DNA of 64,000 nucleotides, taken from assembly GCA_021647205.1 (NCBI GenBank), contig JAKIVD010000006.1:62001-126000 (forward strand), in the 5' to 3' direction. Shown here in pieces: positions 41,104 through 58,395 of the stretch (positions are counted from its first letter, which is position 1; every line of letters begins with the position of its first letter). The position numbers and the translations under genes are program-made. This DNA is from Bacteroidales bacterium (GTDB lineage: Bacteria > Bacteroidota > Bacteroidia > Bacteroidales > F082). A model generated the notes under the pieces. It had not been told where the DNA came from, did no database searches, and worked only from the letters and a program-made list of their open reading frames with translations.

Positions 41104-42804
41104 ATGTCTGATCCTGAAAACGAAAAATCCCGAAAAAATTCGGGCTTGAATTTTATCGAATCCATCATCGAGGAAGATTTATTTAACAACAAAAACCAGG
41201 GGCGTGTGCACCTGCGTTTCCCGCCCGAGCCCAATGGTTACCTGCACATCGGCCATGCCAAATCCATTTGCCTCAATTTCGGGCTTGCCAAAACTTACGA
41301 CGGCCTTTGCAACCTGCGTTTTGACGACACAAACCCCGAAAAGGAAGAGGTGGAATATGTCGATTCCATCATGGAAGACATCAGCTGGCTGGGCTTCGAA
41401 TGGCACGACAAACCTTACTACGCCTCCGATTATTTTGAACAATTGTACGACTGGGCCGTACAGCTGATTAAAAACGGGAAGGCCTACGTTGACGAACAAG
41501 CTCAGGAAAAAATCAGCGAACAACGCGGTGTGCCGACACGGCCCGGAACGGAAAGCCCTTTCCGGAACAGGCCGCCTGAAGAAAGCCTCGGCTTGTTTGC
41601 CCGCATGCGCGATGGTGAATTTGAAAATGGCACAATGGTGCTGCGCGCCAAAGTGGACATGGCCTCACCCAATATGCACATGCGCGACCCCATCATGTAC
41701 CGCATTTTGCACCAGCACCATCACCGTACAGCCGACAAATGGTGCATCTATCCCATGTACGACTGGGCGCACGGGCAATCTGATTTTATCGAAGGCATCA
41801 CCCATTCGGTTTGTACTTTGGAATTTGAATTGCACCGTCCGCTTTACGACTGGTTTCTTGATCAACTGGCCGACGAGCGTTACCGTCCGCAGCAAATCGA
41901 ATTCGCACGGCTCAACCTGAGTTATACCGTAATGAGCAAACGCAAATTGCTCGAACTGGTCCGCGAAGCGTACGTAAACGGCTGGGACGACCCACGCATG
42001 CCGACCATCTCGGGGCTGCGCCGGAGGGGCTACACCCCGCTGTCCATCCGCAATTTTGCCGACCGCATCGGTGTGGCCAAACGTAATAATGTCATCGATG
42101 TCGGCCTGCTGGAATTTAGCGTCCGCGAACACCTGAACCAAATTGCGCCCCGTGTTTTTGCCGTGCTCGATCCCGTAAAGGTCATCATCACTAATTTTCC
42201 GGAAGGGGAAGTTGAACAGATGGAACTGGTGAACAATCCCGAAGACCCGGATGCCGGCAGCCGGAGGGTCCCTTTCAGCAGGGAAATTTATATTGAGCGT
42301 GACGATTTCATGGAAGACCCGCCCAAAAAATTCTTCCGGATGGGCCCCGGCCGCGAAGTCAGGCTCAAAGGTGCCTACATTGTAAAATGTGAAGATTTTG
42401 AAAAGGATGAAAACGGCAGGCTGACTGAAATTCATTGCAGCTATGACCCCACATCAAAAAGCGGGGGAACAGGTGCCAGCCGCAAAGTAAAAGGCACCCT
42501 CCACTGGGTCTCGGTGCAGCATGCCATCGATGCCGAAGTCAGGCTTTACGACCGCCTGTTTTCGGATGAAGACCCGAACGGCCACAATGACAAAGACTTT
42601 AAAGATTTTATCAATCCCGAATCACTCAAAACTTTAACCAATTGTAAGCTGGAGCCGTCTTTGAAAAGTGCCGTGCCGGAAGATAAATTCCAGTTTCAAC
42701 GACTGGGCTATTTTTGTGTCGATAAGGACAGCACACCGACGCAGCTTGTTATTAACCGAACCGTGCCGCTGCGCGATCCCTGGGCAAAAAAAAGCAAACG
42801 GTAA
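41104..42804 (+). CDS. glnS: Glutaminyl-tRNA synthetase
   Basis: Charges tRNA-Gln directly with glutamine. The 566 residues match bacterial GlnRS. The class I signatures are present: HIGH at 48-51 in [15 protein letters not shown] and MSKRK at 277-281. The catalytic domain, acceptor-binding insertion and the two C-terminal anticodon-binding beta-barrels (from about 345) are complete. Its presence matters because the window also contains gatD and gatE, which make Gln-tRNA by the indirect route from Glu-tRNA-Gln. Together these two routes are redundant unless tRNA-Gln isoacceptors are divided between them. Confidence 0.97.
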
Positions 42805-54538: not shown

Positions 54539-55924
54539 CTACTTGTGGACATTCCGTACAAATTCTTCGACCTCAGGAACACCTCCCTGATAAACGAGGT
54601 AACCGTTGTACGGTTCACGTAAGGTGATTTCGTCGTTCACGGGATCCAGCATCATTTCTTTTACTTTGGCGGGGTCTTTGGTTTGTCCCAGTATCCAGCT
54701 CAATTTTACCCAGGCCACTTCGGGTAACATATTCCCTGCCGGGACGATGCCTCTGGCCATCATGTCGCGGCCCGTATCATAAACAAACATGTGGGTATAA
54801 CCCCAAAGTGTTTGCAGGGTCATGTACATGTGGACACCTTTTTTCTGTGCCCTTTCAATGGCAGGATACAACTCTTTGTTTACATGGCCGAGGCCGGTGC
54901 CCACAATAATAATCCCTTCGTAACCCTTTTCCACCATCGCATCAAGCACGTCGGGGTGCATGTGGGGGTAGTAGTACAGCATACTTACTTTGTCGGAGAA
55001 ATAGGGCAATATTTTTACGGCTTTGTCCTGGCGGCGTTTGTTGTAGTTTTTTTTGATGGGGACAATCTCTTTCCTGCTGATGCGTGCGAGCGGGGTGTCG
55101 CCAATGGTACGGAAGGTGGAACGGTAGGAGGAGTGCATTTTTCGGACACGGGTTCCTTTGTGCAGCAAACCGTACTCGTCGGAAGTGGGGCCAAACATGC
55201 ACACCATGACTTCGGCAATATCCGATTCGCCGGCAGCTTTCATTGCATGCATCAGGTTTAAGGCGGCATCGGAACTGGGGCGGTCGGACGAACGCTGCGA
55301 CCCTACCAGCACCACGGGAACAGGCAGGTTCTGGCACATGAAAGTGAGGGCAGCGCCGGTATGGTGCAGGGTATCGGTGCCATGGCCGATGACGATACCG
55401 TCTACACCGTTTTCTATCTCTTTTCCGATGGCTTTGGCGAGGGCAATGTATTGGCGCGGACCCATGTTCTCGCTGAAGACGGCAAAGACTTTCTCCGTTT
55501 CCAGGTTACAGATATCAGCCAGCTCGGGAACGGCACCGTACAATTCGCCGGGCGAAAAAGCCGGGATGACAGCCCCCGTACGGTAGTCGAGCCTTGAGGC
55601 AATCGTTCCCCCCGTACCAAACAGCTTTACTTTTGGGAGGCCTTTGGTATAAGGAAATTCTTTCTCAGGAATTTTATAATTGGCTTTCTTGTAACCGGTT
55701 TCCTTCATGCTGTGAATGGTACGGATGTCGATGCCAATGTTGTAACCGGTTGCTATTTTCACCACAATGTGTTGGTCGTCATCGTTTTCTGCCCGTGGCA
55801 AGACCGTTCCCTCAAAGGTGCCGCGGGTGGTGTCAACTTTGGTGGTTCCCCAAACCCTTACCTTGTACTTTTTCAACACGTCCAGTGCCCCGCCTTTGTA
55901 TCCCTGAAAAATATCGTTACTCAT
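54539..55924 (-). CDS. gatD: Glu-tRNA(Gln) amidotransferase subunit D, archaeal type
   Basis: The asparaginase-like subunit of GatDE, which releases ammonia from glutamine or asparagine for amidation of Glu-tRNA-Gln. The 461 residues start with the GatD-specific N-terminal SH3-like domain (about 15-80: GTTKVDTTRGTFEGTVLPRA). Then comes the type I asparaginase fold with its nucleophile region GTGGTIASR (103-111) and second catalytic motif GHGTDTLHHTGAAL (180-193). Plain asparaginases lack the N-terminal domain, so the pairing with gatE upstream leaves little doubt. GatDE is typical of archaea and rare in bacteria. The gene lies 175 bases downstream of gatE, across a pair of palindromes. Confidence 0.9.
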   Translation of the reverse strand: MSNDIFQGYKGGALDVLKKYKVRVWGTTKVDTTRGTFEGTVLPRAENDDDQHIVVKIATGYNIGIDIRTIHSMKETGYKKANYKIPEKEFPYTKGLPKVKLFGTGGTIASRLDYRTGAVIPAFSPGELYGAVPELADICNLETEKVFAVFSENMGPRQYIALAKAIGKEIENGVDGIVIGHGTDTLHHTGAALTFMCQNLPVPVVLVGSQRSSDRPSSDAALNLMHAMKAAGESDIAEVMVCMFGPTSDEYGLLHKGTRVRKMHSSYRSTFRTIGDTPLARISRKEIVPIKKNYNKRRQDKAVKILPYFSDKVSMLYYYPHMHPDVLDAMVEKGYEGIIIVGTGLGHVNKELYPAIERAQKKGVHMYMTLQTLWGYTHMFVYDTGRDMMARGIVPAGNMLPEVAWVKLSWILGQTKDPAKVKEMMLDPVNDEITLREPYNGYLVYQGGVPEVEEFVRNVHK

Positions 55925-55953
55925 GTTGTGTTTTTTTTATTGTATTAACCCAA

Positions 55954-56080
55954 CCCATTCCCCTCCAAGGAGGGGAATGGGGTACTGCAAGTTATATTAT
56001 TTGCCGTTCTTATGTCCGAATTCTCATTTATTTCATTGGTTGTGAAATTACCAGAAAATCAACTCCCCTCCCGGGAGGGG
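55954..56080. repeat. Two palindromes between gatE and gatD
   Basis: CCCATTCCCCTCC and GGAGGGGAATGGG (55954-55981) form a strong hairpin; CCCCTCCCGGGAGGGG (56065-56080) is a perfect palindrome. Both share the core CCCCTCC-GGAGGGG. Neither has a T-run. They may be dispersed repeats of the Bacteroidota or lower the level of gatD relative to gatE. Confidence 0.6.
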
Positions 56081-56099
56081 CCGGAGGTGGGTTTTACAG

Positions 56100-58061
56100 C
56101 TAAATCATTTTACTCAATTCCGTCAAATCCATATTTCCCAGTGCCAGGTTCCTCAGTTGCCCCATTACCCAGTTTCTTTCATCGCCCTTGCCCGGGCTTC
56201 CCCCCCTGCCGTTAAACTTTTCTTTCAGAAGCGGAATCTTGCTGATAATTTCATCTTTTTCAATCCTTTTAAATTTAATACTTGTCAGTACAGAATCAAA
56301 ATCCAGTTTGGGGTGCTCAATGATTTCAGGGAGCATTTTTTCGGCCAGTTGTTCATGCAAGCCCTTTTCTTTCAGGTAGCGAAAGAGCCTGTAAATATTT
56401 TCGTAATCGCATTTACCGCTTGTCGTTTTTCTGCCTTCGGCGTATTTAAGGCCGTGGCCGATGAAGGTACCGACGAAAGCCGGGCGAATGTTCAGCACAT
56501 TAATAATTCGTTCCACCAGCGGGAATAAATTTTTGGAAAAAATGTAGGTGTAAGTGTCTTCGGGTACACCCCATCTTTTCAGTTTTTTGTAGCGGTCGAT
56601 GATTTCCTCCGGCAGGTTTTGACTGAGCTGTTGAATGTACGCATCTTCCAGCGGAATAGGTGCCGAGTCGGTATCAGGATACATCCGGTCAGCGCCGGGA
56701 AGGACACGTTCAAAAATGGTCGTCCCATCCTCCAGCGATTTCCTGGTTTCTTCCGGCACACCTTCAAAAGCCATCAGACAGCGTTCTTCGATGGTTTCCA
56801 GAGCAGTTTTCACATCTTCCTCCGCTGCCCAGAAAACAAGCTGGGCATCCTCATCTTTGGCTTTCAGAAAAGTGGCGATGGCAGCCCATTCCTTTTTGGT
56901 CAGTTTCGACCGGAAGGCTTCGGAATGAAACAGGTTGGGCTTTTCAAGGCAGGCAATTACTTTTAAGCGGTCGCTAATTTCGTTGGCGAACATTTTCCCC
57001 GGTTGGGTAAACCAGGAAAGCATTCCCAGAAAATAAGGCAGGTTTACGGCGATGAGCTTGAGTCCGGCTTTGGCTTGTTTTTTAAGGTGTCTGTTTTCCA
57101 ATTGCAAATTCCCGCCCAGTTCAAGAAATTTTATCTTCCATTTCCCGGGCCTGGGAACACGCGTTTTCAACCTGTTGCGCATCAGCAGCAAAGACCATTG
57201 CCGAAAAGCTTCGTTGTGGGTGAGTTCGGGTATCCATTTGGTGTGTGCCACGCCTTTTATTTCCACGCGCGACCCGCCCCGGCAGCTCACATTTACATCC
57301 TGGCGGCCGGCACCCATACCGGTTCTTACTTTTCCGGTACTGCGGTTCAAAAAGCGGATGTAATTGCAGGTTTCCATCACCTCGTCAGGGTTCACACAGT
57401 CAGGGTAAGTAACGGTTTCTATCAAGGGCATGCCCAGCCGGTCGGTTTTGTAAGTGCGGGTATGCCCGATGTCGGAAATTTCGCGGCAGGAATCTTCTTC
57501 TATGCTCAATTGAATCAAGCGGATTTTTTTATGTGGCAGCTCCAGTTCGCCCTCCACACCAAGAATGGCCGTGCGTTGAAAACCGGCAGGGATGCTGCCG
57601 TCGAGGTACTGTTTGCGCGTGATGTGGACCTCTCCCACTACATTCAATTTTGAGAGCAGGGAAATTTCCAAAGCAATCTCGAGCGATTCGCGGTTCAGCG
57701 GAAAAGGCGGCGTGTCGTCAATTTCGTAGGTGCAGGCCGTTTCGTTTTTGATGCGGTACACAATTTCTTTGCGTGTTTTAAACTCCATCAGCGCCGTGCC
57801 GTCGTATTCCCCCAGTTCGCTCAGTGTTGGCCGCATGTGGCGGATGATTTCCGCATCGTAATCATCGCTGTGGTTGTAAAAACCGGCCGGGCAGTGACAG
57901 AACATTTTCTCTTTCGTCAACAACTGCTGGTGAACCTCAAGCCCCGACATAAAACCAATCGTGTCGTAGGTTTGCCGGTTTGCCTCTTTCCGGGCTACGT
58001 AGCCGGCCTGCGCCATGGTTTCGCGGTAATTGCGCTTCGGATCAAATTTCACTTTCTGCAT
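56100..58061 (-). CDS. gatE: Glu-tRNA(Gln) amidotransferase subunit E, archaeal type
   Basis: The kinase and amidation subunit: phosphorylates Glu-tRNA-Gln and amidates it with ammonia from GatD. The 653 residues belong to the GatB/GatE family: FMSGLEVHQQLLTKEKMFCH (38-57) and the metal- and ATP-binding region with GMGAGRQDVNVSCRGGSRVE, plus an insertion between about 330 and 430 and a C-terminal helical YqeY-like tail (from about 500). GatE, not GatB, is indicated by the 'RQDVN' segment and the insertion. The gene has its own -7 element (58088-58095). It forms a module with gatD, though glnS is also encoded in the window. Confidence 0.9.
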   Translation of the reverse strand: MQKVKFDPKRNYRETMAQAGYVARKEANRQTYDTIGFMSGLEVHQQLLTKEKMFCHCPAGFYNHSDDYDAEIIRHMRPTLSELGEYDGTALMEFKTRKEIVYRIKNETACTYEIDDTPPFPLNRESLEIALEISLLSKLNVVGEVHITRKQYLDGSIPAGFQRTAILGVEGELELPHKKIRLIQLSIEEDSCREISDIGHTRTYKTDRLGMPLIETVTYPDCVNPDEVMETCNYIRFLNRSTGKVRTGMGAGRQDVNVSCRGGSRVEIKGVAHTKWIPELTHNEAFRQWSLLLMRNRLKTRVPRPGKWKIKFLELGGNLQLENRHLKKQAKAGLKLIAVNLPYFLGMLSWFTQPGKMFANEISDRLKVIACLEKPNLFHSEAFRSKLTKKEWAAIATFLKAKDEDAQLVFWAAEEDVKTALETIEERCLMAFEGVPEETRKSLEDGTTIFERVLPGADRMYPDTDSAPIPLEDAYIQQLSQNLPEEIIDRYKKLKRWGVPEDTYTYIFSKNLFPLVERIINVLNIRPAFVGTFIGHGLKYAEGRKTTSGKCDYENIYRLFRYLKEKGLHEQLAEKMLPEIIEHPKLDFDSVLTSIKFKRIEKDEIISKIPLLKEKFNGRGGSPGKGDERNWVMGQLRNLALGNMDLTELSKMI

Positions 58062-58095: not shown

Positions 58096-58395
58096 GGGAA
58101 AAAGAGGGCAGGCCAAGGGATATTTGTAAGGGATTCTGACGGAAAAAGCTATGGTGTTAAAAAACCGGACAAACGCTTTGGCCTCTATATAAACGAATAG
58201 TCAGCTTAGGGCCTTTTGTTAATTCTTTGCATCTTTTTTCCTGATTACGAAGTTTCCTTCCTTTGTGGCAAAATATACTTCCATAAGCTGTTGACAAAGT
58301 TACGGAATTTGTGTTGTTGGTGATCAGGTGGATTTCCATTTCCAAAAACGGGATGCAAATCCGGTGGGTTTCCTCAGAATAAACCCAACAATAAA
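58096..58395. other. Intergenic stretch before gatE
   Basis: About 300 bases between gatE and the stop of the threonine aldolase gene. I find no plausible gene, RNA or repeat. Confidence 0.4.

Follow-up and report, generated by a model that had tools for sequence, protein, structure and literature searches.

The closest described relatives of the system treated here are the archaeal tRNA-dependent amidotransferases GatDE of Pyrococcus abyssi (1zq1) and Methanothermobacter thermautotrophicus (2d6f), and the archaeal indirect pathway to Gln-tRNA(Gln) is characterized by the lack of a glutaminyl-tRNA synthetase (GlnRS), by a tRNA(Gln) with the first base pair A1-U72, and by a non-discriminating GluRS. 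Enzymes of the GatDE family are described as amidating Glu-tRNA(Gln) and as inactive on Asp-tRNA(Asn). According to a 2022 review, the present occurrence of GatDE is confined to archaea, and this restriction has been used there to argue on the last universal common ancestor (LUCA) and on GlnRS never having entered archaea (PMC9499178); a GluRS/GlnRS survey of bacteria equates an absent GatCAB with an absent indirect route and never mentions GatDE (PMC3927822). No paper describing a bacterial GatDE has been found in the open-access literature searched, and specialists may have met such names, as database models already call these proteins GatD and GatE. The stretch of DNA analysed here (64,000 nucleotides of contig JAKIVD010000006.1 from a Bacteroidales bacterium, assembly GCA_021647205.1, in the following called the window) carries a gatE-gatD pair together with a gene for GlnRS, a combination that conflicts with the textbook view of an essentially archaeal GatDE, as an earlier note on this DNA had pointed out. 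We take the pair to be a genuine GatDE of an ancient Bacteroidota branch, which has been inherited mostly vertically, has often been lost, and has been kept alongside GlnRS; with a probability of about 0.55, it still functions as its archaeal counterpart does. Carried by the observed identity of the proteins, their intact active sites, tRNA-binding architecture, purifying selection, wide distribution, and co-occurrence with GlnRS, this reading is further favored because no conserved neighbor points to a different pathway. The find is real, and of greater interest as a bacterial GatDE branch so far overlooked than as a local oddity.

The window pair has in common with archaeal GatDE the same two subunits, domain order, and catalytic residues, at an identity of ∼45% for GatD and 34–36% for GatE, and the nearest solved structures for both proteins are the archaeal GatD and GatE (1zq1, 2d6f). 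Unlike its archaeal counterparts, however, it is bacterial, stands beside GlnRS, and occurs with a U1-A72 tRNA(Gln), so that neither the missing GlnRS nor the A1-U72 pair of the archaeal pathway is found in the window's genome; moreover, 22 positions are fixed differently in both bacterial clades of GatE described below. With bacterial GatCAB the relation is more distant, as GatB and GatE have the kinase/amidation core and a YqeY tail in common, whereas GatE additionally contains an AspRS-like insert and its partner is the asparaginase-type GatD instead of GatA/GatC. Both genes lie on the minus strand and are transcribed in the order gatE (56100–58061, 653 aa), the kinase/transamidase and tRNA-binding subunit of the Glu-tRNA(Gln) amidotransferase, and gatD (54539–55924, 461 aa), the glutaminase/asparaginase subunit. 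The completeness of both genes, claimed in the earlier note, has been borne out by intact open reading frames (ORFs), by retained catalytic residues and domains, and by profile scores above the cut-offs: GatD reaches 496.7 bits against NCBIfam TIGR02153 (cut-off 324), and GatE reaches 392.2 bits against TIGR00134 (319.6) and 459.8 bits against PRK04028 (456). The highest-scoring GatB model stays at 116 bits, far below its cut-off of 338, which likewise agrees with the earlier assignment of the protein as GatE and not GatB. Pfam domains comprise GatD_N and the N- and C-terminal asparaginase domains in GatD, and GatB_N in GatE. The catalytic T-T-D-K of GatD (T107, T183, D184, and K262 in the window protein) is invariant in 166/166 aligned GatD rows, and 34 GatE positions, including E42, H44, E188-D190, and R253/D255/N257, are invariant across both bacterial GatE clades, archaeal GatE, and GatB. 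The structure modelled with AlphaFold for the window GatE (mean predicted local distance difference test score, pLDDT, 80.6) aligns over 492 residues with archaeal GatE 2d6f_D (Z 30.5), and contains an AspRS-like (GAD) insert at residues 305–437, which aligns with the AspRS insertion domain, as well as a YqeY-like tail at 598–653 (YqeY 8xjg, Z 6.0). The full domain set of cradle, AspRS-like insert, helical part, and YqeY tail is hence found, and with it the parts by which archaeal GatDE holds tRNA. Ratios of nonsynonymous to synonymous substitution rates (dN/dS) in close pairs, 0.04–0.08 for GatE and 0.02–0.06 for GatD, point to strong purifying selection on both genes, and therefore to proteins that are in use.

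Contrary to the picture of a peculiarity of one bacterium drawn in the earlier note, GatE is widespread. It passes the cut-off in 122 of the 295 sampled genomes of the order (∼41%), and at E ≤ 1e-40 it is found in 126/295 genomes and 83/184 genera; in a phylum-wide sample of 395 genomes, 30 have GatE above the cut-off, namely the window's own and 29 others, all of which belong to other classes. Scanning of the contigs of GTDB species with bacterial GatE peptides has revealed at least 568 relatives, and the best 80 of these are nearly all from Bacteroidales, including the isolate Perlabentimonas gracilis, besides a few from Saprospiraceae, Aminicenantes, and other metagenome-assembled genomes (MAGs). 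Contamination does not explain gatE, because four GatE-positive genomes (G132, G294, G124, and G605) consist of a single contig; in G605, this one contig of 4.81 Mb carries both gatE and glnS, and gatB is absent.

In a tree of 135 rows rooted on GatB, bacterial GatE forms one branch, sister to the three archaeal GatE included, which are all euryarchaeal (P. abyssi, M. thermautotrophicus, and a frameshifted Natrinema plasmid copy). The same arrangement is recovered in a mixture-model tree of 26 rows, with a support of 88/83 for the bacterial, 100/99 for the archaeal, and 100/100 for the GatB branch. GatE does not group inside bacterial GatB; such a grouping had been named in the earlier note as a refutation. 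Based on three euryarchaeal sequences, the position of the root with respect to archaea is preliminary. Within the bacterial branch two clades are seen, a Bacteroidales-type with 63–68% identity to the window GatE in the aligned sample, and one of other classes with ∼43%; the tail of the former has diverged to WIMGQL..A.GN, where the latter has MG..M..LRGK. Family labels change 54 times on the GatE tree compared with 109 times after shuffling (0/200 shuffles as low), and 51 times compared with 92.7 on the GatD tree, so that the inheritance of GatDE is mostly vertical. Transfers are likely for an Aminicenantes pair (L150, L155), for G156 (L063, from another class), and for G592, which is placed away from its family. 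At L150, L155, and L166, Bacteroidales-type gatE is carried by contigs whose labels read Candidatus Aminicenantes and Archangium sp., by transfer or mis-binning. An outlying GatE (L061, G357; 35% identity to the window protein) branches off basally among the bacterial sequences and has other sequence features, such as RLTPSE in place of RPTLSE. The Natrinema copy (L184, CP031304.1) is an unannotated gatE on a haloarchaeal plasmid of 987 kb from Natrinema thermotolerans; it reads in two frames and has apparently suffered a frameshift.

The genome to which the window belongs (98.5% complete, with 3.53 Mb in 46 contigs) possesses the direct route to Gln-tRNA(Gln): glnS (41104–42804, plus strand), already named in the earlier note, encodes a GlnRS with 748 bits against TIGR00440 (cut-off 426). 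Besides the one GatE, profile searches of this genome have found no GatB and no true GatA, and the gatCAB genes and second gltX that the earlier note had suggested looking for are thus both missing, with a single GluRS present. The only GatA-like protein, a lipoprotein-like amidase of 212 bits (cut-off 481; L002, G000:C36:18648-20045), is related to GatA and not a GatA itself. The coexistence of GatE with GlnRS is the rule elsewhere, as GlnRS has been detected in 129 of the 142 GatE-positive genomes tested (in one case as a fragment). Taken together with the 122/295 genomes of the order and the clustered family labels, this amounts to the wide vertical presence beside GlnRS that the earlier note had itself named as a refutation, and the reading as a lone horizontal import fails on it. 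Most of the 13 genomes without GlnRS are incomplete MAGs or have GlnRS-bearing congeners, and three of them (G287, G314, and G251) have GatCAB. Within the order GatCAB is rare, occurring only in G478 among the tested GatE-positive genomes; in the other classes GatB accompanies GatE in 22/29 genomes, and GlnRS, GatB, and GatE are found together in 19/29. G428 and G468, with neither GlnRS nor GatB, have been considered as cases with GatDE as the sole route and rejected, as their congeners G633, G570, and G661 have GlnRS; the missing GlnRS is likelier a matter of missing contigs.

By analogy to the archaeal enzyme, GatDE of Bacteroidota probably amidates Glu-tRNA(Gln) beside GlnRS, in parallel or as a back-up, an assignment that we favor slightly. 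GatD would hydrolyse Gln or Asn and release ammonia, which would pass to GatE, and GatE would use ATP to phosphorylate the gamma-carboxyl group of Glu on tRNA(Gln) and then amidate it; the simplest source of Glu-tRNA(Gln) would be a low-level charging by GluRS, and the enzyme would have to accept the bacterial U1-A72 tRNA(Gln), not the archaeal A1-U72. A comparable retention of a tRNA-dependent amidotransferase beside a direct synthetase is described for bacteria with both GlnRS/AsnRS and GatCAB, such as Bdellovibrio, Deinococcus, and Thermus, where the enzyme is GatCAB and serves Asn (PMC4206432); if active, GatDE beside GlnRS would be another case in which both routes have been kept.

Several results weigh against a functional amidation of this kind. 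No complete genome has been shown to depend on GatDE, given the congeners of the two candidates. On the tRNA side, archaeal GatDE has been reported to read A1-U72 of tRNA(Gln) (PMC9499178), a base pair that occurs in none of the 76 UUG and 32 CUG tRNA-Gln compared from 76 genomes (38 with and 38 without GatE); all have U1-A72, including the one tRNA-Gln (anticodon UUG) of the window's genome, and GatE-positive and GatE-negative genomes alike show G2-C71 and nearly always A73. The identity elements, which the earlier note had proposed to inspect, have yielded one difference, as G6-C67 is commoner with GatE both in tRNA-Gln(UUG) (24/38 vs 6/38, p 5e-5) and in tRNA-Gln(CUG) (11/20 vs 0/12, p 0.002), but the link is not significant with independent pairs (6 on the GlnRS tree, 2–3 in the same direction and 0 opposite), so that it is a weak, suggestive hint of a tie between GatDE and tRNA(Gln). 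On the synthetase side, there is one GluRS per genome and no demonstrated source of Glu-tRNA(Gln), no GluRS column separates GatE-positive from GatE-negative genomes better than shuffled labels, and a survey files the Bacteroidetes GluRS as tRNA(Glu)-specific (PMC3927822). Arg358 of GluRS (T. thermophilus numbering) has been present in every genome examined, including the GlnRS-less G287 and G314. This residue is usually taken as the mark of a discriminating GluRS. As a marker it is uninformative here on whether GluRS charges tRNA-Gln: G287 and G314, which belong to other classes, are 99% complete and have GatDE and GatCAB with one GluRS and no GlnRS, so that charging of tRNA-Gln should fall to this GluRS, in which Arg358 is kept nonetheless.

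Two further features of the tRNA-Gln genes have been noticed. They are of two structural kinds in Bacteroidales (e.g., L301, L303, and L307), one of 72 nt and one of 73–74 nt in which the D-loop (AATTGGCAA) and the variable region are longer, and both are found in genomes with and without GatE. A tRNA-Gln gene (mostly CUG) lies within ∼2.5 kb of glnS in 14/40 GatE-positive Bacteroidales (G399, G418, G434, G442, G444, G462, G487, G491, G493, G496, G502, G511, G570, and G608) and in 0/13 GatE-negative genomes whose glnS has a known place, as raw counts without phylogenetic control; in the window's genome this is not so.

The alternatives differ in what they make of this redundancy. GatDE may act in quality control only, repairing rare erroneous Glu-tRNA(Gln) formed by GluRS or GlnRS, which would be most useful under Gln shortage; such an enzyme would be dispensable, hence the frequent loss. 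The patchy presence (∼41% of the sampled order; G592 has GatDE, and its congeners G494 and G676 lack it), the nearly constant company of GlnRS, and a GluRS that is not visibly non-discriminating would all suit such a role, which we still regard as unlikely in view of the strong purifying selection on GatD and GatE and of a mischarging that is only postulated. A repurposed enzyme that amidates another misacylated tRNA, a tRNA-like RNA, or an RNA-carried carboxylate in place of Glu-tRNA(Gln) would explain the retention beside GlnRS and also, as is common in the other classes, beside GatCAB. The extreme redundancy of those 19/29 genomes with all three enzymes, the tRNA(Gln) without archaeal-type first base pair, and the identical tRNA-Gln(UUG) of G592 and of the GatDE-less G494 and G676 speak for it; all active-site residues and the tRNA-binding parts have been retained, however, and no conserved neighboring gene could supply another substrate, which leaves this explanation doubtful. 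Equally doubtful is the broader idea that GatDE has been retuned in much of Bacteroidota, either to another substrate or for a special function with the bacterial U1-A72 tRNA(Gln), and that selection keeps it independently of the GlnRS route. In the earlier note, a role in stress or ammonia detoxification and work on a tRNA-like substrate had also been put forward as possible reasons.

The two remaining explanations concern the history of the pair, and both are very improbable. Horizontal acquisition had been offered in the earlier note, and its recent form, in which this bacterium in isolation would have taken up the pair from an archaeon, perhaps as a passing passenger, is refuted by the distribution over 122/295 genomes of the order and by the GatE and GatD trees. 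Some transfers do occur (two Aminicenantes MAGs, G156, and G592), and MAGs may be mis-binned, but the nearest relatives of the window proteins are from Bacteroidales, with up to 71% identity for GatE and 88% for GatD against only 34–36% for archaeal GatE, family labels cluster on the trees, and hundreds of bacterial loci exist. What stands of the proposal is that the Bacteroidota lineage may have received the pair from archaea very long ago. A pair in decay or without function, left over from an ancestral indirect pathway that GlnRS has replaced, would agree with the patchy presence in the order and its probably frequent losses, and is contradicted by complete ORFs, invariant catalytic residues, and a dN/dS of 0.02–0.08.

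The occurrence of bacterial GatDE in hundreds of Bacteroidota genomes, nearly always beside GlnRS where tested, challenges the claim of an archaea-only enzyme, and likewise the arguments on LUCA and on GlnRS never entering archaea that have been built on it. GatE-positive Bacteroidota are natural organisms in which both routes to Gln-tRNA can be tested genetically, and if their GatDE is active on the host tRNA(Gln), it must read a bacterial-type tRNA.

Regarding the arrangement of the locus, gatD, wherever it was found (118/118 loci), lies downstream of gatE and on its strand, directly adjacent in 114, and a comparison of the neighborhoods of these loci has revealed no other gene family conserved beside the pair. 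The Bacteroidota-type promoter that the earlier note had placed before gatE has not been recovered: the exact −33/−7 consensus (TTTG-N17-23-TAnnTTTG) is absent upstream of the gene, and the pattern occurs 4 times in the window vs 4.1 expected from shuffles. A one-mismatch version upstream of gatE (TTTG at 58173–58170, TAGCTTTT at 58151–58144) is no evidence for a promoter. The gap between gatE and gatD is mostly a few tens of nucleotides or less in the relatives and is exceeded by the 175-nt spacer of the window (55925–56099, minus strand), in which two short palindromes CCCTCCNNGGAGGG are located (55961–55974 and 56066–56079; 0.06 expected in the window), perhaps representing an attenuator or an intergenic repeat.

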